Shown here: piece by piece, positions 1 to 7,520 of the stretch
Numbering within the stretch: position 1 is the stretch's first letter
Layout: each line of letters begins with the position of its first letter
Origin: Dehalococcoidia bacterium
GTDB lineage: Bacteria > Chloroflexota > Dehalococcoidia > Tepidiformales > Tepidiformaceae
Assembly: GCA_009838385.1 (NCBI GenBank)
Contig: VXRS01000200.1
Coordinates: 1-7,520 of the forward strand
Length of the DNA: 7,520 nt
Direction of reading: 5' to 3'
The notes under the pieces: generated by a model
The model's database searches: none
What the model saw: only the letters and a program-made list of their open reading frames with translations
What the model was told of the DNA's origin: nothing
Translations under genes and position numbers: made by a program

Positions 1-586
1 GCGCCTGGAGGCGGGCGGCGCCGGTGCTGAGCGCCCCGAGCTGGGCGTCGAAGTCGCCGCGGCGTTCGGCGGGCGTGCGGACGTTCCGGAGGATCAGCGC
101 GAAGAGCGCCTCGTTCAGCCGTCCTGCCTCGCGCAGCTTGAGGGGCGGGATGATGACGCCCTCCTGGTACAGCTCCGTGGCCACCGGCATCGAACCTGCC
201 GACATGCCTCCGATGTCGGCGTGATGCGCGCGGTTGGCGACGAACCCGATGAGCTCGCCGCTGGCGAACACGGGCGCCACCAGCGTCACGTCGGGCAAGT
301 GCGTGCCACCGAGGTATGGGTCGTTGACGATGGCCACGTCGCCCTCGCTCCAGGGCGCCAGCGTGGAGACCGCGGCGATCGACTCGGGCATGGCTCCCAG
401 GTGGACGGGGATGTGAGCGGCCTGCGCCACCATCTCACCGTTTGCATCGAAGACGGCGCAGGAGAAGTCGCGGCGCTCGCGGATGTTGGGTGAGTGGCTT
501 GTGCGCCACAGCGTTACGCCCATCTCCTCCGCAGCCGAAGCGAGGAGCGCGTTCCAGACGGCGAGGCGGGCGGGATCGTCGGTCAT
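1..586 (-). CDS. hyuB: Hydantoinase B/oxoprolinase family subunit, N-terminal part (cut by window edge)
   Basis: The first 195 codons of a HyuB-type subunit are present; the C-terminus lies beyond position 1. The protein begins MTDDPARLAVWNALLASAAE. Visible family motifs are the SPNIRERRDFSCAVFD segment (about residues 32-47), NDPYLGGTHLPD (88-99) and NRAHHADIGG (118-127), the last being a hallmark of the HyuB/5-oxoprolinase C-half family. In this family HyuB works with HyuA in ATP-dependent opening of cyclic amides (5-oxoproline, N-methylhydantoin) or in related carboxylases; the substrate cannot be told here. The ATG overlaps the TGA of hyuA in an ATGA arrangement, with no clear ribosome site of its own, so translation is probably coupled to hyuA. 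There is no stop in frame down to the edge. A full HyuB is usually over 500 residues, so well over half is missing from view. Family assignment is secure; substrate is unknown. Confidence 0.93.
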   Translation of the reverse strand, partial: MTDDPARLAVWNALLASAAEEMGVTLWRTSHSPNIRERRDFSCAVFDANGEMVAQAAHIPVHLGAMPESIAAVSTLAPWSEGDVAIVNDPYLGGTHLPDVTLVAPVFASGELIGFVANRAHHADIGGMSAGSMPVATELYQEGVIIPPLKLREAGRLNEALFALILRNVRTPAERRGDFDAQLGALSTGAARLQA

Positions 587-2526
587 CGTGGGGTCACCAG
601 GAGGTTGCCGCCGGCGTCGACGGTCGCCTGCCAGCCCTCCGGAATGAAGGTAGTTGCGTCCGGCTGCGTGATAACCGCAGGCCCGCCGAGCGTCGAGCCG
701 ACGGCAAGCGCTGCTCGGGAGGTCTGGGCTGCGGCGACGCCGCCTGCCAGCGTGATCGGTTCGGACGCCCCGGAATCGTCAGTGGTCTCGGCGGCCAGGT
801 CCGGAAGAGTACGCGTTGCGCCCTGCGCGCGGCAGCGCAACGCGACCAGCTCGACGGGGCGCTCGGGAGTCGAAAAGCCGTACTCGCGCTCGTGGGCGGC
901 ATGGAAGGCGGAGGCAATCGTGGCCGGTTCGGGCCGGTCGATGGAGACTCGCAGCTCGTGCGCCTGACCCTGGTAGCGCACATCGGCGGCCCAGGTGAGC
1001 TGCGTGAGTGTCCCGCCTGCGGCCTGCAAGTCCGCCTTCGCCTGCTCCTCGAGTGCCCTGGCAGTGTCGTTGACGGAGGCCGACGCTTCCTGCCCCAGGC
1101 TGATCAGCAGCCCCTGCCCCCGCTCGATGACCTCCGGAGCCGTGGCGATCCCGACTGCGGACAGCACTCCGGCATGGCGGGGTACGAGCACCTGTCCGAT
1201 GCCGAGCTCGGCTGCCAGCTCGCAGGCGTGGAGGGGGCCGGCGCCGCCGAAGGCCACAAGCGTGAAGCCGGCGGGGTCGTACCCGCGTTCCAGGCTCACG
1301 CGCCGCAGGGCCCGCGCCATGGTCGCGTTCGCGACCTCGACCACCGCGGCCGCCGACGCTTCGGGGTCGCCGAGGGTGGCAAGGGCGTCACGGGCACGCG
1401 CGAAGTCGGGGATGACGGAGCCGCCAAGCGGTGCGTCGGGGCGCAGCCGTCCCAGCACGAGATTGGCGTCGGAGACGGTCGGGAGCTCCCCACGTCCATA
1501 GCAGGCCGGGCCGGGATCGGCGCCCGCGCTCTGCGGCCCCACTGCCAGCGCCCCGCCCGAATCCAGGCGCGCGATCGACCCGCCGCCCGCGCCTACCGTC
1601 ACGATGTCGACCATGGGCGTGTGTACGGCGAGGCCGTCGACCTCGGTGGCGGAACGGTAGCGGGGTTCGCCCGGGCAGAGCGAAACGTCGGTGCTGGTGC
1701 CGCCCATGTCGAACGTGATGACCTGCTCGTGACCCGCCGCCTTCGCCACGGCAAGGGCGCCGAGCACCCCGCCGGCGGGCCCGCTCGTGACCATCGAAAC
1801 GGGGCGCTCGCCGCTGGTCGCGGCGTCGGTGAGGCCGCCGGCCGAGTGCATCACGCGCAGCCCGGGGAAGCGCCCGTCGATGCCGTTCAGGTAGCGGCGG
1901 GCCGCTGGCTGGAGGAACGCGTTGATGGCGGTCGTGCTGGCGCGCTCGTACTCGCGGTGCTCGGGAAGCGTCTCGTGCGAGGCGCTCACCGGGAAGCCCG
2001 CTTCGCGCAGCGCGCTGGCGAGACGGGCCTCGTGTTCGGGTCGCAGGTAGGCGAACAGCAGGCAGATGGCGACCGCCTCCGCCCCCAACGTCCGCGCCTC
2101 CTGGACCACCCGCGCGACCTCGCCCTCTTCGAGGGGCGTCACGACCTCGCCGTCGGCGCCGATCCGCTCCCGCACGGTGATGACATCGCCACGCGCGACG
2201 ACGTGGGGCGTTCGCCGGGGTTCGAGGTCGTAGAGGGATGGGCGCTCCTGCCGCCGGATGACGAGCAGGTCGCGGAAGCCCTCGGTCGTGACGAGAACGG
2301 TGCGCGGTCCGCGGCGTTCCAGGAGGGCGTTCGTGGCGACGGTGCTGCCGTGCGCCAGCCGCTGGTCGGTCAGGCCGCCCGCGCCGGCCAGGACGGCTTC
2401 TTCCGGAGCGGAGGGCGTTGAGAGGCGCTTCCAGGTGCGGATGCCCGTCTCTTCGATGGCGACGAAATCCGTGAACGTGCCGCCCACGTCCACGCCGAGG
2501 ACGCCTCCTTCCAGCGCCTCAGCCAC
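583..2526 (-). CDS. hyuA: Hydantoinase/oxoprolinase subunit A (ATP-binding)
   Basis: A complete 647-residue HyuA-type protein, a normal length for the family. The actin-like ATPase fold is marked by DVGGTFTD (residues 13-20) and DMGGTSTD (273-280). Other conserved blocks are HGSTVATNA (59-67), SHETLPEHREYERASTT (183-199), GPAGG (249-253), VGAGGGSIA (311-319), GPQSAGADPGPACYG (330-344) and AFGGAGPLHA further on. With HyuB it should form an ATP-dependent cyclic-amide hydrolase (5-oxoproline to glutamate, or a hydantoin substrate) or a related carboxylase; the sequence does not decide which. I chose the GTG at 2526 because it lies just before the conserved N-terminal strand, sits 1 base after the uvrC stop, and has AAGGAG 10 nt upstream. 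The frame remains open further upstream, but that stretch is proline/arginine-rich shadow of uvrC. Being coupled to uvrC is an odd neighbourhood for this metabolic pair. Confidence 0.95.
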   Translation of the reverse strand: MAEALEGGVLGVDVGGTFTDFVAIEETGIRTWKRLSTPSAPEEAVLAGAGGLTDQRLAHGSTVATNALLERRGPRTVLVTTEGFRDLLVIRRQERPSLYDLEPRRTPHVVARGDVITVRERIGADGEVVTPLEEGEVARVVQEARTLGAEAVAICLLFAYLRPEHEARLASALREAGFPVSASHETLPEHREYERASTTAINAFLQPAARRYLNGIDGRFPGLRVMHSAGGLTDAATSGERPVSMVTSGPAGGVLGALAVAKAAGHEQVITFDMGGTSTDVSLCPGEPRYRSATEVDGLAVHTPMVDIVTVGAGGGSIARLDSGGALAVGPQSAGADPGPACYGRGELPTVSDANLVLGRLRPDAPLGGSVIPDFARARDALATLGDPEASAAAVVEVANATMARALRRVSLERGYDPAGFTLVAFGGAGPLHACELAAELGIGQVLVPRHAGVLSAVGIATAPEVIERGQGLLISLGQEASASVNDTARALEEQAKADLQAAGGTLTQLTWAADVRYQGQAHELRVSIDRPEPATIASAFHAAHEREYGFSTPERPVELVALRCRAQGATRTLPDLAAETTDDSGASEPITLAGGVAAAQTSRAALAVGSTLGGPAVITQPDATTFIPEGWQATVDAGGNLLVTPR

Positions 2527-2527
2527 C

Positions 2528-4399
2528 CTAGACGTACTCCTTGACCTTCTCCGCAAGGGAACGGGTGTAGCCGGCGGTGCTGGCAATCTCCTCGACGCCG
2601 GCCTCGCGCACGGCCTTGAGCGAGCCGAACTTGCGCAGGAGTGCGCGCTTCTTCTTCGGGCCGACGCCGGGAATGGAGTCGAGGACGCTGGCGGTGGCGG
2701 CCTTGCGGCGCACCTGGCGGTGGTAGGTGATGGCGAAGCGGTGGGCCTCGTCACGGACGCGCTGGACGAGGTAGAGGGCTTCGGAGCCGCGCGGCAGGAT
2801 GATGGGCGCTTCTTCGTCCGGGGCGAACAGCTCTTCGTGGCGCTTCGCCAGCCCGAACGTGGGAATGTGGTACACGCCGAGCTCGCGCATGACCTCTACG
2901 GCCGCGCTCAGCTGGCCCTTGCCCCCATCGACGATGACGAGATCGGGCAGGTCCCAGCCGTCGTCGTCGGCTGTCTCGGTATCGCCGCCTTCGAGGGTCT
3001 GCTGCTCGATGCGCTTGGCGGCTCGCTTGAAGCGGCGGCGCAGGACCTCCTGCATGGTGGCGAAGTCATCTGGTCCCTCGACGGTCTTGATGCGGAACTT
3101 GCGGTACTGCCGAGGGGCGGGCTGGCCATCGAGGAAGACGACCATGCTGGAGACCGGGCTGGCGCCCTGGGTGTTCGAGTTGTCATAGCACTCGATGCGG
3201 TGGGGCGCCTCGGGCAGGGCGAGTTCCTCCTGCAGCTCGTCGAGGGCGGTGGCGGTCTTGGTCTGGTCGCTGAGCCAGCGCACCTTGAGGTTGTCCAGCG
3301 CCTCGGCCGCGTTCTCGCGGGCCATTTCCAGAAGCTGGCGCTTCTCGCCGCGCTGGGCCACGCGAATCTCGACGTTGGCGCCACGCTTCTCCGTGAGCAT
3401 TGCCTCCAGGTCGGCCCGCCCTTGCGGCTCGATCGGCACGACCACCAGCTTCGGGATCGACTGCGCGCTCTCGTAGTACTGCTGCAGCAGGCTGCCGAGC
3501 ACAGCCTCGTCGGACTCGCCCGTGACGCCCTCCATGACGAAGTGGTCACGACCGGTCATCTGCGTGCCGCGGACGAAGAAGACCTGAACGCAGGCGCGGT
3601 CGCCTTCGCGGGCGAGGCCGTAGACGTCGAGCTCTTCCTTCTTCGTGGTCGAGAGCATCTGGCGTTCGACGGTTCGCTCGATGGCCCGGATCTGGTCGCG
3701 GAGCATGGCGGCGCGCTCGTAGTCGAGGGACTCGGCGGCCGTATTCATCTGGTCCCCCAGGCGGTCGAGCACGTCGGACGCCTTCCCTTCGAGGAAGAGG
3801 ATGATCTGGTCGATGACCTCGGTGTATTCCCCGGGCGTGCAGTAGGCCGTACAGGGGGCGATGCAGCGCTTGATGTAGTAGTCGAGGCAGGGACGCGGGT
3901 CCGTCCCCGTGATCTCCTTGGTGCAGGAGCGGTAGGGGAAGAGCTTCTTGAGCAGGTCGAGGGTGGCGCGCACGGAACCGGCGCTGGCGTAGGGGCCGAA
4001 GTAGCGGGCGCCGTCCTTCTCGATGCGGCGCGTGATGTAAACGCGCGGCCACGGGTTCTGCACGTCGATCTTGAGGTAGGGATAGCGCTTGTCGTCCTTC
4101 AGGCGAATGTTGAAGAACGGCTGGTGCCGCTTGATCAGCGTCGCCTCGAGGATGAGCGCCTCACCGGCGTTGGCGCAGACGATGTACTCGAAGTCCTCGA
4201 TATCGGCGCGCAGGGCGCGGGTCTTCGGTTCGAGGCTGCGGGGCGAGCCGAAGTAGGAGCGCACGCGGTCCTTCAGGCGCGCTGCCTTGCCGACGTAGAT
4301 GACCTCGCCCTTCTCGTTGCGCATGAGGTAGACGCCGGGCCTCGCGGGGAGCGCCTCAATCTGCTTCTTGAGCCGTTCGGGTAGGGCGGTTGCGACCAC
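2528..4399 (-). CDS. uvrC: UvrABC excinuclease subunit C
   Basis: A full-length 623-residue UvrC, the nuclease that makes both cuts around DNA lesions after UvrA/UvrB loading in nucleotide excision repair. Domains in order: GIY-YIG nuclease (about 18-100; PGVYLM and VIYVGKA, with the NAGEALILE segment), a cysteine-rich region with C159, C171, C179 and C183 spaced 12/8/4 as in the iron-sulfur site of E. coli UvrC, the UVR motif that contacts UvrB (about 216-251), the RNase H-like nuclease (ECYD at 403-406, PDD 443-445, VIVDGG with D491, H553), and tandem helix-hairpin-helix (about 571-620; SIPGVGPKKKRALLRKFGS). All expected catalytic residues are present. The segment after D406 reads NSN where DIS(H/N) is usual, a minor change. 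The start is GTG with no good ribosome site; a TACACT hexamer ends 6 nt before it, so the transcript may be leaderless. It is followed with 1 base between by hyuA. Confidence 0.98.
   Translation of the reverse strand: MVATALPERLKKQIEALPARPGVYLMRNEKGEVIYVGKAARLKDRVRSYFGSPRSLEPKTRALRADIEDFEYIVCANAGEALILEATLIKRHQPFFNIRLKDDKRYPYLKIDVQNPWPRVYITRRIEKDGARYFGPYASAGSVRATLDLLKKLFPYRSCTKEITGTDPRPCLDYYIKRCIAPCTAYCTPGEYTEVIDQIILFLEGKASDVLDRLGDQMNTAAESLDYERAAMLRDQIRAIERTVERQMLSTTKKEELDVYGLAREGDRACVQVFFVRGTQMTGRDHFVMEGVTGESDEAVLGSLLQQYYESAQSIPKLVVVPIEPQGRADLEAMLTEKRGANVEIRVAQRGEKRQLLEMARENAAEALDNLKVRWLSDQTKTATALDELQEELALPEAPHRIECYDNSNTQGASPVSSMVVFLDGQPAPRQYRKFRIKTVEGPDDFATMQEVLRRRFKRAAKRIEQQTLEGGDTETADDDGWDLPDLVIVDGGKGQLSAAVEVMRELGVYHIPTFGLAKRHEELFAPDEEAPIILPRGSEALYLVQRVRDEAHRFAITYHRQVRRKAATASVLDSIPGVGPKKKRALLRKFGSLKAVREAGVEEIASTAGYTRSLAEKVKEYV
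2537..2542 (-). promoter_or_regulatory. Ribosome binding site of hyuA inside the 3' end of uvrC
   Basis: AAGGAG on the minus strand lies 10 nt before the GTG at 2526. It is within the last codons of uvrC (Lys-Glu-Tyr-Val). It decides the hyuA start against the upstream open frame and implies uvrC and hyuA are on one transcript. Confidence 0.7.
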
Positions 4400-4420: not shown

Positions 4421-4837
4421 TCAGCGGGACAGTTCCGCCAGGGCGTCGGTGGGGGAGAGCGCCGGGACCGGCGAGTCCACGTAGTCACGCACGTTGCGGG
4501 TGAGGATGAACTGTGCGTCGCAGGCGCGGGCGGCGGCAACCTGCATCGCATCCTCGAAGTCGGGTATGGGCAACGTCAGGGCGTAGTGGGCATCCTCTGT
4601 GCCTGTCTTCGCAACCTCAGTGAACTCCAGGAGCTGGGCGACGGCATCCTTGGCGAAGGCGGCGTCCTGTGGCCGCTCGAGGTTGTAGTAGAAGTTGGAG
4701 ATGGTGTGCCACGCCACGAGAAGGGTCTCTCCTCGTTCGCGAAGTAGTTGGATGACCTCGCGAGAGGGGCCGACAAAGCTCTCCCGGCCCAGCGCTACGT
4801 CGATCAAGACGTCGGTGTCAACGAGCCACCTGGCCAC
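4421..4837 (-). CDS. PIN-domain toxin, VapC-like ribonuclease
   Basis: A 138-residue single-domain PIN protein, the toxin half of a type II toxin-antitoxin pair; PIN toxins are metal-dependent RNases that cut tRNA or other RNA. Visible motifs: LVDTDVLID at the N-terminus (D7, D9, D13), HTISNFYYNL (about 44-53), PDFEDAMQ (92-99, with D93 and D96), and LTRNVRDY (112-119). In classical VapC a glutamate lies in the second motif; here the matching place is SNFYY (N48). I recall this as common in the PIN_3-type subfamily rather than a sign of decay. The start is a GTG sharing its G with the antitoxin's TAG, so translation is coupled to the antitoxin. A weak AAGAAG lies upstream. The gene ends in TGA, 21 nt before uvrC. 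The molecular target is not predictable. Confidence 0.9.
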   Translation of the reverse strand: MARWLVDTDVLIDVALGRESFVGPSREVIQLLRERGETLLVAWHTISNFYYNLERPQDAAFAKDAVAQLLEFTEVAKTGTEDAHYALTLPIPDFEDAMQVAAARACDAQFILTRNVRDYVDSPVPALSPTDALAELSR

Positions 4838-5199
4838 TAATCGAAGGGTCCGTACTTCTTGACCATGCGCTGGTACCTGAGGTCATCAAGATCCTGGTCG
4901 GTTAGCGGCGTCTCTGGTTGGGCCTGTCCCCAGAGGCGGGTTCCGAAGGGGAGCGATGTGTCATTCCAGCGAGCAGCGCGCTCCTCCTCGGTCTCGAAGG
5001 GAAGATGCTCTGCGATCTCCTCGGGCGTCTTCCCCGCCGCCCAGGACGTGCCTTCCGCCGGGGAGTCCGCCTCCAGCTTGTCGCGGAGGATCTGCTCGAT
5101 GACAGAAGAGAGAGAGACGCCGCGGGCACGGGCATAGTCCTTCGCCCTGGGGAGCACCTCGGAGTCGATCGTGACCGTCAGCTTCGTCTTGGTCTGCAT
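4837..5199 (-). CDS. Ribbon-helix-helix antitoxin (VapB-like, DUF6364 type)
   Basis: A 120-residue antitoxin partnering the PIN toxin. Residues 6-43 form a ribbon-helix-helix DNA-binding unit: the strand KLTVTID, then helices EVLPRAKDYARARG and SLSSVIEQILRDKL. The remainder (about 44-120) is acidic and likely holds the toxin-neutralising part, which is longer than in minimal VapB proteins. The frame is open further up to an ATG at 5259, but those 20 residues are the operator read as protein (MNDTYTCCYNTYTYHAENPA). The ATG at 5199 has GGAG 9 nt before it (5209-5212) and directly precedes the RHH strand, so I use it. As is usual for RHH antitoxins, it probably dimerises and represses its own promoter through the inverted repeat at 5215-5255. 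Confidence 0.9.
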   Translation of the reverse strand: MQTKTKLTVTIDSEVLPRAKDYARARGVSLSSVIEQILRDKLEADSPAEGTSWAAGKTPEEIAEHLPFETEEERAARWNDTSLPFGTRLWGQAQPETPLTDQDLDDLRYQRMVKKYGPFD

Positions 5200-5214
5200 G
5201 GCTGGATTCTCCGC

Positions 5215-5255
5215 ATGATACGTATACGTATTGTAGCAGCACGTATACGTATCAT
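5215..5255. repeat. Perfect 15-bp inverted repeat, antitoxin operator
   Basis: The left arm ATGATACGTATACGT (5215-5229) and right arm ACGTATACGTATCAT (5241-5255) are perfect reverse complements separated by 11 bp (5230-5240). Each arm carries the smaller palindrome ACGTATACGT, so the site offers two RHH-dimer-like half operators about 26 bp apart, centre to centre. The -10 box of the antitoxin lies in the spacer, so bound protein would block RNA polymerase. It is strikingly AT-rich in a GC-rich window. The right arm ends one base before the stop codon of the phosphotransferase gene. Confidence 0.85.
5230..5238 (-). promoter_or_regulatory. Extended -10 promoter of the antitoxin-toxin operon
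   Basis: TGCTACAAT on the minus strand is an extended -10 element (TGn plus TACAAT, with the hexamer at 5230-5235). The -35 region would fall near 5253-5258 and is weak (TGAATG), which an extended -10 can tolerate. Transcription should start near 5223, giving a leader of about 24 nt before the ATG at 5199, which includes the ribosome site. The promoter is enclosed between the two operator arms. Confidence 0.65.
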
Positions 5256-6017
5256 TCACGTTTCGCTCAGTTCCCGGAGCTCCTTCAGCCTGCGCTGCGC
5301 GTAGTCGGACTCGAGCTGCCAGCAGACCGCGACTTCCCAGGCGACCGACGCCCGCCGGATGCGGTCGAAGTCCCCCGGAGGCAGGCTGGCTGACTCAGCG
5401 TCGGGCAGGGCGCCGAGGTCGAGGAGGGGGGAGTCGATGCGCGCTTCATCCCAGTCCAGCAGGCCAACCCGGTCCCCGTCGATACGGATGTTGGTGGGGG
5501 AGGGGTCGCCGTGGATTACCGCCGGCTCGCCCTCGGGGAGCTCCTTCCAGGCGGCGCGGCACAGGGCGGCGTCCTCGGGCGGGAGGAGGGACATGTCGAC
5601 GTCGCCACCACGGTCGGTCGCGATCAATTCGTGACAGGTGCGGAAGCCGGGGCGCTGGGGCCGCGCCGGCATCAGGCTGTGCAGCCGCCGTAGTTCATCG
5701 CCGACGAGCTCGGCGTCTCGTTTGCCCTTGGGCTCCCTGCCCTCGATGAACGACAGAACGACAAGCCCACCGACGCGGCGCTCGCCCGACGCAGTCGCGA
5801 TCGGAAGGGGGACGGTGAAGCCCTTGTCGTGCAGGGCGCCAAGCAGGTCGAGCTCCCAGTCCAGTGCCTCGCCCGCGCGGTCGTTCTGGCGGGCGACACA
5901 GCGCTCACCACGCAGCCGGATGGTCCAGACGCGGTTGCGTAGGCCGCTTACTTCCGCCTCGACGTCGACGGCGCCCCACGGTTCGAGCCTCTGCTGAAGA
6001 TCGCCAAAGGGCGTCAT
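5256..6017 (-). CDS. APH-family phosphotransferase (aminoglycoside phosphotransferase fold)
   Basis: A 253-residue protein-kinase-like small-molecule phosphotransferase. The C-lobe shows the catalytic loop VIHGDPSPTNI (H169, D171, N176) and the metal-binding DWDEA (D188, D190) followed by the usual DSPLLDLGAL. The N-lobe is recognisable from ELDLLGALHDKGFTVPLPI (55-72) and LVVLSFIEGREP (85-96, hinge and start of C-lobe). Proteins with this fold phosphorylate aminoglycosides, homoserine, choline, fructosamine or other small molecules; nothing here identifies the substrate, and calling it a resistance gene would not be justified. The ATG at 6017 has GGGAGG 11 nt upstream (6029-6034). The stop TGA abuts the operator of the antitoxin, so the -35 region of that promoter is inside this gene's end. 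It is slightly short for the family but looks intact. Confidence 0.85.
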   Translation of the reverse strand: MTPFGDLQQRLEPWGAVDVEAEVSGLRNRVWTIRLRGERCVARQNDRAGEALDWELDLLGALHDKGFTVPLPIATASGERRVGGLVVLSFIEGREPKGKRDAELVGDELRRLHSLMPARPQRPGFRTCHELIATDRGGDVDMSLLPPEDAALCRAAWKELPEGEPAVIHGDPSPTNIRIDGDRVGLLDWDEARIDSPLLDLGALPDAESASLPPGDFDRIRRASVAWEVAVCWQLESDYAQRRLKELRELSET

Positions 6018-6028
6018 GGACGGGTTGG

Positions 6029-6034
6029 CCTCCC
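6029..6034 (-). promoter_or_regulatory. Ribosome binding site of the phosphotransferase gene
   Basis: GGGAGG on the minus strand, 11 nt before the ATG at 6017. It supports that start. The spacing is a little long. Confidence 0.55.
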
Positions 6035-6086
6035 GGCACCAGCGTACGGCGTGTGCGCTCGCGAGCCAGCTAACGCCTCCCGCCGG

Positions 6087-6092
6087 TACAAT
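6087..6092 (+). promoter_or_regulatory. Probable -10 box of the crotonase operon (leaderless start)
   Basis: TACAAT is followed by only 7 nt and then the GTG at 6100, so the transcript would begin at or very near the start codon. No Shine-Dalgarno sequence is visible before the GTG. I see no strong -35 hexamer. The surrounding 82-bp region (6018-6099) separates the divergent phosphotransferase and crotonase genes and should hold promoters for both; I could not place a convincing one for the minus strand. Confidence 0.55.
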
Positions 6093-6099
6093 CGCCGCC

Positions 6100-6906
6100 G
6101 TGGACTACCAACACATCCTGTACGACGTGGCGGACGGCATCGCGACGATCACGCTGAACCGGCCTGAGCGGCTGAACGCGTTCGACAACCTCATGCTGAG
6201 CGAGTGGCGGGACGCCATCGAGCGCTCGGACGCGGATCGCGACGTGCGCGTCATCATCCTGACCGGCGCCGGGCGCGGGTTCTGCAGCGGCATGGATGTC
6301 GCGCACGAAACCGCGGGGGAGGGCGTGCTGCGCACGGAGGAGAGCGTCGCCGAGCGGCGACACAGCCTCCGCAACAGCGTCCACCACATCCCCCGAGCGC
6401 TGGTGCAGCTGGAGAAGCCGTACATCGCGGCGGTCAACGGCGCGGCCGTGGGCGCGGGGATGGACATGGCCTCGATGGCCGACATCCGTTTCGCCAGCGA
6501 GCGGGCCCGCTTCGGCATGGGCTATGTGCGTATGGGCCTCATCCCGGGCGACGGCGGCGCCTACACGCTTCCGCGCATCGTGGGCACGGCCAAGGCGCTG
6601 GATCTGATCTGGAGCGGTGAGCTGATCGACGCGCAGGAAGCGCTCCGTATCGGGTACGTGAGCGAAGTCTGCCCGCCCGAGGAGCTGCTGGACCGCACGC
6701 GCGAGTTCGCCCAGAAGATCGCGCGAGGGCCGGCGACGGCCATCCAGCTCGCGAAGAAGCTCGTCTACCGCTCCGCCAACCTGACCTTCGACGAACACCT
6801 CGATTTCGCCCAGATGGCAATGACCCTCGCGCAGTCCACCGAGGACGCGAAGGAGGGCCCCCTCGCCTTCACCGAGAAACGCGAGCCCAACTTCAAGGGC
6901 TACTAG
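6100..6906 (+). CDS. Enoyl-CoA hydratase/isomerase (crotonase) family protein
   Basis: A 268-residue crotonase-fold protein of normal length that should act on an acyl-CoA thioester. Conserved parts are the N-terminal [20 protein letters not shown] (10-29), the two oxyanion-hole segments [10 protein letters not shown] (58-67) and NGAAVGAG (113-120), and [16 protein letters not shown] (138-153). Against rat mitochondrial hydratase, the two catalytic glutamates (E144, E164) align with D122 and Y142, so true 2-enoyl-CoA hydration is doubtful; isomerase, hydrolase or another crotonase-type reaction is possible. The GTG at 6100 is chosen because it directly precedes the first strand ([12 protein letters not shown]) and follows TACAAT at leaderless spacing; the frame is open to an ATG at 6016, but that part has no family match and overlaps the other gene's start. 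It is first in an operon with a peroxiredoxin and an acyl-CoA dehydrogenase. Confidence 0.93.
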
Positions 6907-6910
6907 CGAC

Positions 6911-6916
6911 AAGGAG
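6911..6916 (+). promoter_or_regulatory. Ribosome binding site of the peroxiredoxin gene
   Basis: AAGGAG lies 6 nt before the ATG at 6923, in the 16-nt gap after the crotonase gene. It is the best ribosome site in the window. It fixes the start of the peroxiredoxin frame upstream of the in-frame TGA, so the gene is set up for translation from its true N-terminus. Confidence 0.85.
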
Positions 6917-6922
6917 AACAAC

Positions 6923-7384
6923 ATGCCTCCAGCACCTGGTGACCGCGCCCCGGCGTTCACCCTGATGAACAAGGACCGGGAGGAGGTCACGCTCGACTCG
7001 TTCCCCGGCAAGAACATCGTCCTGGCGTTCTATCCGCTCGCCTTCACCGGTGGGTGAACGTCCGAGATGATCGGCTTCCGCACGCACACGGATGCGTTCG
7101 CGGAGGCCAACGCCCAGGTTCTGGGCGTGAGCGTCGATTCCTTCGCCGCCGTCGGTGAGTTCCAGGAGAAGCTCGGGCTGGAGTTCCCCCTCGTCTCGGA
7201 CTTCCCGAGGAACCAGGCGGGGCGCGACTACGAGATCTTCAACGAGGACTTCGGTTTCCATAACCGTGCCACCTTCGTGATCGACAGCGAAGGCATCGTG
7301 CGCGATGTCTACCTCGAGCCGCGTGACTTCGAGTCGCACGCGCCGCACGCGCTCGAAGCGCTGCGCGAGATCAACGAGGGCTAG
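6923..7384 (+). CDS. AhpE-type peroxiredoxin, probable selenoprotein with TGA-encoded Sec45
   Basis: Read through one TGA, the gene encodes 153 residues. From what I know, that matches Mycobacterium tuberculosis AhpE in length. Family features: [10 protein letters not shown] (5-14), the active-site loop [14 protein letters not shown] (36-49; P38, T42), VLGVSVDS (66-73), FPLVSDF (88-94), and NRATFVID (114-121) with R115 matching the active-site arginine. TGA at 7055-7057 is codon 45, the exact place of the peroxidatic cysteine (C45 in AhpE). The frame is intact on both sides to TAG at 7382, with the same high third-position GC. There is no cysteine anywhere, so no resolving cysteine in the chain; reduction would need an outside thiol. 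The expected role is cytosolic reduction of peroxides, with Sec as the attacking residue. Alternatives are a fresh nonsense mutation or a sequencing error of TGC/TGT. Incorporation needs selA, selB, selC and selD elsewhere in the genome. The next gene is 6 nt downstream. Confidence 0.82.
7073..7108 (+). promoter_or_regulatory. Candidate bacterial SECIS hairpin within the peroxiredoxin gene
   Basis: The hairpin begins 15 nt after the TGA. Lower stem: 7073-7081 (GGCTTCCGC) with 7100-7108 (GCGGAGGCC), 9 bp including one G-U. Upper stem: 7082-7086 (ACGCA) with 7093-7097 (TGCGT), 5 bp. Apical loop: CACGGA (7087-7092). A 2-nt bulge (UC, 7098-7099) sits on the 3' side. The loop starts 29 nt after the TGA, within the range known for bacterial SECIS elements. 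The loop carries GG in its second half rather than the GGUC-like start of E. coli fdhF, so the match to SelB rules is partial. GC-rich coding DNA also gives chance hairpins, but 14 pairs at this place is notable. Confidence 0.6.
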
Positions 7385-7390
7385 GTTCCC

Positions 7391-7520
7391 GTGCTCTTTC
7401 GCGACTCGCCCGAGCAGGCCGCCTTCCGTGCGGAGATCCGCGACTTCCTCGACGCGGAGCTGCCTGCGGAGATGTGGAACATGCGCAGCGATCGCGAAGA
7501 GATGGACGAGGAAGAGGCAG
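7391..7520 (+). CDS. Acyl-CoA dehydrogenase, N-terminal fragment (cut by window edge)
   Basis: Forty-three codons are visible from a GTG at 7391 to the window end, with no stop. The start MLFRDSPEQAAFRAEIRDFL, followed by an acidic stretch, is typical of the first helix of bacterial acyl-CoA dehydrogenases of the FadE-like family, which oxidise acyl-CoA to 2-enoyl-CoA using FAD. The catalytic base and FAD-binding parts lie outside the window, so the assignment rests on the N-terminal helix and on the company of a crotonase gene. The start is 6 nt after the peroxiredoxin stop, with only a weak GAGG upstream, so translation is probably coupled. Confidence 0.75.
   Translation, partial: MLFRDSPEQAAFRAEIRDFLDAELPAEMWNMRSDREEMDEEEA

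Follow-up and report, generated by a model that had tools for sequence, protein, structure and literature searches.

A probable selenocysteine-containing AhpE-like peroxiredoxin of Dehalococcoidia and a candidate branched bacterial SECIS element

An AhpE-like peroxiredoxin gene, located near one end of a 7,520-nucleotide stretch of DNA from a Dehalococcoidia bacterium (contig VXRS01000200.1, referred to as the window), carries an in-frame TGA that almost certainly inserts selenocysteine (Sec) at the active site of the enzyme. On the basis of sequence comparisons, we consider it highly probable that the gene encodes a working 1-Sec AhpE-like peroxiredoxin, that the UGA at 7055-7057 is decoded as Sec, and that the insertion takes place via a branched bacterial SECIS. 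A broader proposal, which we favor with less confidence, is that this element represents a second, branched architecture of the bacterial SECIS, in which the UGA and the SelB-binding G-U hairpin are about 60 nt apart and the distance is brought back to normal by an inserted hairpin. This architecture would have evolved in AhpE-like selenoperoxiredoxins of the Chloroflexota and other phyla, and its pairing would dictate residues 64-68 of the protein. The original prediction, made from the letters of the window, had identified the Sec codon; it overlooked the branched RNA element, which is the more unusual part of the locus. The components of the proposed element, two hairpins (H1 and H2) and a basal stem (P0), are listed in Table 1 together with the genes.

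Table 1. Features of the peroxiredoxin locus (positions are those of the window).
Feature	Position	Strand	Remarks
Enoyl-CoA hydratase family gene, directly upstream	6016..6906	+	Pfam ECH_1, 1.9e-61
Likely ribosome binding site (aaggag) of the peroxiredoxin gene	6911..6916	+	From the letters of the sequence only
AhpE-like peroxiredoxin gene, TGA predicted to be read through	6923..7384	+	153 residues, 1-Sec type, 0 cysteines
In-frame TGA, predicted Sec codon	7055..7057	+	Residue 45, peroxidatic position
P0, 5' strand of the proposed basal stem	7063..7072	+	Two registers
H1, long hairpin, proposed side arm/spacer	7073..7108	+	Columns 19-54 in the window (TGA = 1-3); family consensus 17-55
H2, hairpin ACGCCCAG-GUU-CUGGGCGU, proposed SelB-binding arm	7110..7128	+	G-U-N triloop at 7118-7120
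P0, 3' strand	7129..7141	+	Both registers
Start of the next gene, probably acyl-CoA dehydrogenase	7392..7520	+	Cut by the end of the window

The peroxiredoxin frame extends from the ATG at 6923 to the TAG at 7382-7384 and, as originally predicted, the TGA at codon 45 is its sole interruption. The context of this codon is PLAFTGG-U-TSEM. In a phmmer alignment the TGA coincided with the Cys in the sequence PLAFTGIC of AhpE Rv2238c (PDB 1xxu), which agrees with the earlier assignment of codon 45 to the attacking Cys of AhpE; an in-frame UGA aligned with the catalytic Cys of homologues is the pattern by which selenoproteins are recognized. The protein matched the Pfam families AhpC-TSA (1.1e-35) and Redoxin, and an AlphaFold2 model had a mean pLDDT of 93.9. 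Third-position GC was 0.84 on the 5' side of the TGA and 0.90 on the 3' side. Under the standard reading the gene would be split into a 44-aa stub and a "headless" 105-aa ORF that starts at an internal ATG (7067). The existence of this ORF had been anticipated, and fragments of about 105 residues appeared many times in the protein search. Headless 105-residue versions starting at the internal ATG are numerous in the protein collection (e.g., P0006, P0007, P0013 and P0016), and P0016 is annotated as a redoxin domain-containing protein. Reading of the stop codons confirmed that TGA ends hyuA, the PIN toxin gene and the APH-type phosphotransferase gene in the window, while uvrC, the gene upstream of that for PIN, the enoyl-CoA hydratase gene and the peroxiredoxin gene itself end in TAG.

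Read-through orthologues that keep the TGA were found in 29 of 60 related Chloroflexota genomes, a count of the best TGA matches (L009-L037) that leaves out the lower-scoring TGA paralogues of G054 and G041; the row for G016 in this search lists TAA besides TGA. The nearest genome, G001, is 95% identical to the window over 6000-7520, and 25 of the 38 genomes of its family have the TGA gene. In a search at the class level, 104 of 294 genomes had a match at E 1e-20 or better, and a TGA-bearing match was present in 76 of the 104 (hand count); 60 loci or paralogues, a subset, were taken from the class list. The closest loci (88-97% protein identity) belong to MAGs called Dehalococcoidia or Chloroflexi, and L086 (76%) to one called Tepidiformaceae. 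Beyond the Chloroflexota, TGA forms were found in MAGs named Tectomicrobia, Acidobacteria, Eremiobacterota and Bacillota. A TGA form that is about 36% identical, with hairpins unlike H1 and H2, is present in Sulfobacillus harzensis DSM 109850 (L109).

The codon at the Sec position was TGA in 119, TGC in 16 and TGT in 5 of 140 aligned loci, with no other codon observed; since the loci were picked from match lists and include 17 twin records, 119 of 140 is not a prevalence. This restriction supports the earlier argument that a TGA would hardly fall exactly here by chance. All ten sister proteins that are 55-67% identical have Cys at the Sec column, so that an inspection of homologues at position 45 finds Cys in the sisters and a conserved TGA in the relatives. 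The claim that the frame shows no decay 3' of the TGA was borne out by dN/dS values of 0.07-0.27 against six close relatives (L009, L010 and L012-L015); against four more distant relatives the range was 0.04-0.34, with dS partly saturated. These ratios indicate that the frame 3' of the TGA is under purifying selection, and values well below 1 make a pseudogene very unlikely. In a quick tree with weak support there were at least 13 changes between Sec and Cys, and close Cys forms were nested among Sec forms. The nesting of the Cys forms (full-length P0001-P0035) suggests repeated exchange between Sec and Cys. Among the other sequences collected, two FFFPRAGTxGU peroxiredoxins (L167 and L187) likewise carry an active-site TGA and are placed with Bcp-like Cys proteins in the quick tree, and one Chloroflexota TGA form of 256 residues (L096) has a C-terminal extension with three Cys that is possibly a fused reductant.

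In the proposed mechanism the UGA would be decoded as Sec by tRNA-Sec, SelA, SelD and SelB. These components were called in the 60 relatives when tRNA-Sec scored at least 60 bits and SelB, SelA and SelD exceeded their family cut-offs. The 29 genomes with the TGA gene included 27 with tRNA-Sec, 28 with SelB, 26 with SelA and 29 with SelD. All four were present in 23 of them, and each of the other six, which are at most 86% complete, was short of a single part. The TGA gene was found in 29 of the 46 genomes that have at least two parts of the machinery and in none of the 14 that have none (Fisher p 2e-5). Within the family of G001, selA was present in 14 of 14 near-complete genomes with the TGA gene vs 1 of 8 near-complete genomes without it; over all 38 genomes the figures were 22 of 25 and 4 of 13, respectively. 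The complete set was found in relatives including G001, as the prediction of a Sec codon had led one to expect. The tRNA-Sec of G001 has the anticodon TCA, its SelB has the C-terminal winged-helix domains SelB-wing_2 and wing_3, and its SelD itself reads GCGG-U-ASK. A TGA is likewise present in 44 of the 46 SelD rows that exceeded the cut-off.

The analysis of the RNA included 101 of the 119 TGA loci, after 17 identical twins and L162 (no value) were left out, and 21 Cys genes used as controls, which are mostly more distant than the closest Cys relatives (P0001 and others). The folding stability of 40-nt windows was expressed as z relative to synonymous-codon shuffles. The mean z at +12 from the TGA was -1.94 in the 101 TGA genes vs -0.08 in the 21 Cys genes. 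In the family of the window (25 genes) it was -2.43 at +12 and -2.84 at +18. At one or both of these positions the value fell below -1 in all 25 family genes; among the other TGA genes this applied to 60 of 76, and among the Cys genes to 5 of 21. An Rfam search of the window produced 0 matches up to E 1. Since RNAalifold found 0 consensus pairs in a single mixed-family set (A3), the structures were tested clade by clade instead; in the family of the window the program recovered just part of H1. The length of H1 is 36 nt in the window, with a median of 38 over 84 genes. Among 24 distinct sequences, changes on both sides occurred at 7 of its 15 pairs and in 25 cells vs 10.6 in shuffled alignments (0 of 500 as high), and 84% of the cells were paired in register vs at most 50% when the arms were slid. 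The count of further pair types was less clear (17 vs 14.4 shuffled, 29 of 500 as high).

A second dip of z, at +42 to +54, led to the discovery of H2. The arms of this hairpin meet around codon +21, and the codon itself constitutes the triloop (GCCCAG-GUN-CUGGGC). Applying a strict rule (at least 5 pairs), H2 was found in 77 of the 101 TGA genes, in 20% of their synonymous shuffles and in none of the 21 Cys genes, while stems centered on other codons between +14 and +29 of the TGA genes did not exceed 13%. When looser loops were admitted, H2 was present in 84 of 101 TGA genes and again in 0 of 21 Cys genes; in two of the latter the minimum-energy fold contains a stem resembling H2. The central codon begins with GT in 79 of the 84 genes. 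Because codon +21 also encodes Val in 14 of the 21 Cys genes, the constancy of G-U may be partly a legacy of the protein, which does not apply to the complementary arms. Compensatory forms include GCCCAA/TTGGGC, GCCCGC/GCGGGC, GCTCAC/GTGGGC, GCCAAG/GTTGGC and ACTCAG/GTGAGT. Changes on both sides numbered 66 cells vs 24 shuffled (0 of 500 as high), with 86% of the cells paired vs at most 46% when slid; a slide by one position left 43 both-side cells and 40% of cells paired. Some of the H2 changes replace two amino acids together (Gln-Leu, Arg-Ala, His-Val, Lys-Val). Residue 67 is encoded within H2; all 18 Sec proteins (L016-L033) have Leu here, compared with 9 of 16 close Cys proteins, and the run AQVLG is present in 17 of 18 and 8 of 16, respectively (p 0.006). 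Two Cys genes located inside Sec clades (L169 and L170) are without H2, and their relatives L138, L144, L146 and L147 have it. The possibility that H2 is a by-product of the codons for Ala-Gln-Val-Leu-Gly was considered, and is argued against by the synonymous shuffles of the 101 TGA genes and by the Cys genes.

P0 was found in more than one register. The family register pairs 7064-7071 with 7133-7140, and the minimum-energy fold of the window pairs 7066-7072 with 7129-7135. The energies calculated for the window were -38.8 with the family register, -40.6 with its own register and -37.9 without P0, so the contribution of P0 is 0.9 or 2.7 kcal/mol. In the 25 family genes the fraction of paired cells was 91% vs 75% in synonymous shuffles for P0 in the family register, 84% vs 68% for H1 and 99% vs 76% for H2, which all 25 genes have. 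In each case 0 of 200 shuffles were as high; the folds from which the P0 and H1 registers were taken are those of these very genes, a choice for which the shuffle tests are uncorrected. In the 21 Cys genes none of the three pairings was clearly above the shuffles. The family registers did not extend to the 59 other TGA genes, where pairing was 52.8% vs 52.7% shuffled for P0 and 48.1% vs 48.2% for H1; the figure for H2 in these genes is biased because they were chosen for having it, and 77 of 101 is the fair figure. Clade f21 (16 genes) has P0 in another register (9-17 with 75-82; 88% vs 65% shuffled, 0 of 200 as high), and in this clade P0, H1 and H2 each exceeded 200 of 200 synonymous shuffles.

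Folding of positions 7055-7138 of the window produced a basal stem around H1 and H2, and the segment 7066-7134 alone had a z of -3.91, with 0 of 200 shuffles as stable. H1 and H2 were folded jointly (columns 11-80) in 75 of the 84 genes with H2. A minimum-energy fold comprising H1, H2 and a basal stem of at least 4 pairs was obtained for 96% of the 25 family genes vs 12% of their shuffles, for 32% of the 76 other TGA genes vs 7%, and for 0% of the 21 Cys genes vs 1%. The minimum-energy folds of the family used the family register of P0 in 12 of 25 genes, another register in 12 and neither in 1. P0 is a likely closing stem, judging from these folds; its register varies, and it is the least settled part of the branched fold.

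The loop of the E. coli fdhF element is numbered counting from the UGA. The fixed bases of this element are U17, G23 and U24 (PMC8659212). In the published model of the bacterial SECIS (bSECIS), a stem of 4-16 bp carries a loop of 3-9 nt whose first two positions include a G, and 16-37 nt separate the UGA from the apical loop (PMC13188914). Some genes fail this single-hairpin model, and distinct classes may exist (PMC13188914, PMC12013277). H2 resembles the fdhF type in that it is located in the coding region after the UGA and has an upper stem with a G-U apical loop; in the window the GUU loop and the stem of 8 bp agree with the loop and stem rule of PMC13188914. Unlike that type, its loop starts 60 nt after the UGA, outside the range of 16-37 nt, and the extra helix H1 makes the structure branched. 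A canonically placed G-U hairpin was found in 8 of the 17 TGA genes without H2 vs 2 of the 84 genes with it (p 4.5e-6); by the criteria used here, 9 of the 17 were also without the canonical hairpin. The simplest reading of this mutual avoidance is that H2 and the canonical G-U hairpin are alternatives for one job.

G-U loops were also found in other selenoprotein genes. In 14 of 14 SelW-like genes of the same family there is a direct hairpin, with the loop CGUGGA and a 19-nt spacing, that covaries at one pair. The loci concerned (Rdx, CxxU) are L225, L227-L229, L231, L233-L235, L237, L239, L240, L245, L248 and L249. In PrxU genes of other Chloroflexota the G-U lies directly at +22 in 8 of 8 (GGUC in six, AGUU in two), and in the selD genes it lies at +37 in 20 of 20 framed loci (L203-L219 and L221-L223); the mis-framed PrxU gene L192 and the selD gene L220, which has no frame, were left out. 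The selD hairpin, which mostly has the same apical CAG-GUN-CUG as H2, is located behind a hairpin of about 14 nt. Covariation support for the selD G-U hairpin was weak (3 both-side cells), and none was detected for the hairpin that precedes it. The two together are possibly a smaller version of the spacer design.

From these comparisons we infer that SelB would read H2 through its upper stem with the G-U-N apical loop, that H1 would be inserted between the UGA and H2 as a side arm, and that P0 probably closes both hairpins. With H1 folded away, the UGA and the H2 loop would be separated by about 22-24 nt instead of 60 nt, a distance within the normal range. The competing interpretation of the RNA is an ordinary SECIS, with H1 as the SelB-binding element; H2 would then be accessory or would result from codon choice. 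H1 has strong covariation and, with a loop that begins 29 nt past the UGA, occupies the usual place (16-37 nt in PMC13188914). However, the loop of H1 in the window, CACGGA, has no G in the first two positions, unlike the model, and the constant G-U loop lies in H2 (79 of 84) and not in H1, as it likewise characterizes the selD, SelW-like and PrxU genes. Moreover, H2 and the canonical G-U hairpin avoid each other, and codon choice was controlled by the synonymous shuffles both in the 101 TGA genes and in the family. We therefore regard an ordinary SECIS as unlikely.

The remaining alternatives concern the codon itself. If the TGA were a true stop, the gene would be dead or would produce just the 105-aa fragment, and the standard reading with its stub and its many database fragments agrees with this; but the TGA is shared by 25 of 38 family genomes, dN/dS is well under 1 after it, the Sec codon is limited to TGA, TGC or TGT in 140 loci, and H2 behind the codon is confined to TGA forms. 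A pseudogene or nonsense mutant is thus extremely improbable. We give equally little weight to a reassignment of TGA as a sense codon (e.g., Trp or Gly) or to plain near-cognate readthrough. These would account for the open frame across the TGA and for nothing else, whereas TGA ends other genes of the window, the Sec column is Cys in the ten aligned sisters, relatives carry a Sec tRNA with the anticodon TCA, and the 14 relatives without Sec machinery are also without the TGA gene. An error of sequencing or assembly that turned TGC or TGT into TGA is less probable still, given that the same codon is TGA in independent assemblies of several projects. Selenocysteine is the sole reading of the TGA that fits the sequence comparisons: Cys in the sisters, the conserved TGA, the machinery, purifying selection and the RNA element all support Sec at the peroxidatic position, as had been proposed.

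Sec peroxiredoxins with a TxxU motif are already known (PMC1794560, PMC2398784, PMC9312934, PMC13188914), and the original prediction had acknowledged them as a group, which the TxxU family of PMC13188914 and PMC2398784 bears out. PrxU, first described from Eubacterium acidaminophilum, shares with the window protein the AhpC/TSA domain, Sec in place of the peroxidatic Cys and TxxU (PMC13188914, PMC2398784, PMC9312934). In contrast to PrxU, the window protein has no Cys and scores 58 bits against NF040737, whose cut-off is 270; PrxU also forms its own clade in the quick tree. Of 301 Chloroflexota genomes, 9 have PrxU-type proteins over the NCBIfam cut-off (L189-L197); all 9 possess a TGA form, and G386 additionally has a PrxU form without TGA. 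The word AhpE does not occur in the main text of PMC13188914, PMC2398784 or PMC9312934.

The designation AhpE-type stood with respect to sequence. The best PDB sequence match of the window protein was AhpE Rv2238c (82.6 bits), with the next family at 73.6 bits, and the protein has a single peroxidatic residue and no resolving Cys, which are the characteristics of AhpE. It is 34% identical, when structurally aligned, to the mycobacterial 1-Cys AhpE (PDB 1xxu, 1xvw, 4x0x and 5id2), from which it differs in having Sec for Cys. By fold, Bcp ranked slightly above AhpE, and the quick tree, whose deep support is weak, places AhpE on a long branch in the other half. Bcp/PrxQ proteins (PDB 5epf and 3drn) had lower sequence scores than AhpE (73.6 bits for 3drn), and the Bcp-like paralogue of G001 (L184) differs in having a second Cys five residues past the first. 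In searches of open-licence papers, neither an AhpE-like peroxiredoxin with Sec nor a bacterial SECIS of branched or distant type was found described. The RNA element is the part that is new, and it appears to be a branched variant of the usual single hairpin.

The peroxiredoxin gene probably shares a transcript with the enoyl-CoA hydratase gene. An enoyl-CoA hydratase gene is located upstream in the window and in L097, L085 and L092; the corresponding ORF of L086 had no match. The 43-residue piece encoded by 7392..7520 had no Pfam match, and the gene at the corresponding place in L097 and L085 encodes acyl-CoA dehydrogenase, so that in the window too the peroxiredoxin is probably flanked by these two genes. 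Among 19 neighboring ORFs (some perhaps not genes) of 15 other loci no recurrent redox gene was found; a PALP gene is upstream in two Bacillota loci (L109 and L113), and a rhodanese gene is downstream in L113. Elsewhere in the window, positions 4421-5259 (minus strand) contain a PIN-domain toxin gene and, adjoining it upstream, a DUF6364 gene that probably encodes its antitoxin. Hydantoinase/oxoprolinase B and A genes occupy 2-2754 (minus strand). The ORF of A starts inside uvrC (2528-4399), and its true start is probably near 2500 because the first Pfam domain begins at residue 86.

By analogy with the family, the selenolate would attack and reduce the peroxide and would then be regenerated by an outside thiol, which is required for this step since the protein has no cysteine. 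AhpE uses mycoredoxin. As a guess that fits the gene neighborhood, the role of the enzyme may be the removal of peroxides originating in fatty-acid oxidation.

If the branched element is true, it describes one class of the genes that fail the published model, provides a rule for finding more of them, and offers a test of how SelB measures distance. A laboratory test would be possible with a named strain, Sulfobacillus harzensis DSM 109850, which has a TGA form. The locus adds an AhpE-like, cysteine-free selenoperoxidase whose database entries are headless 105-residue fragments. It also adds a family with intermixed close Cys and Sec forms, which would be useful for studying the retention of Sec vs its loss.
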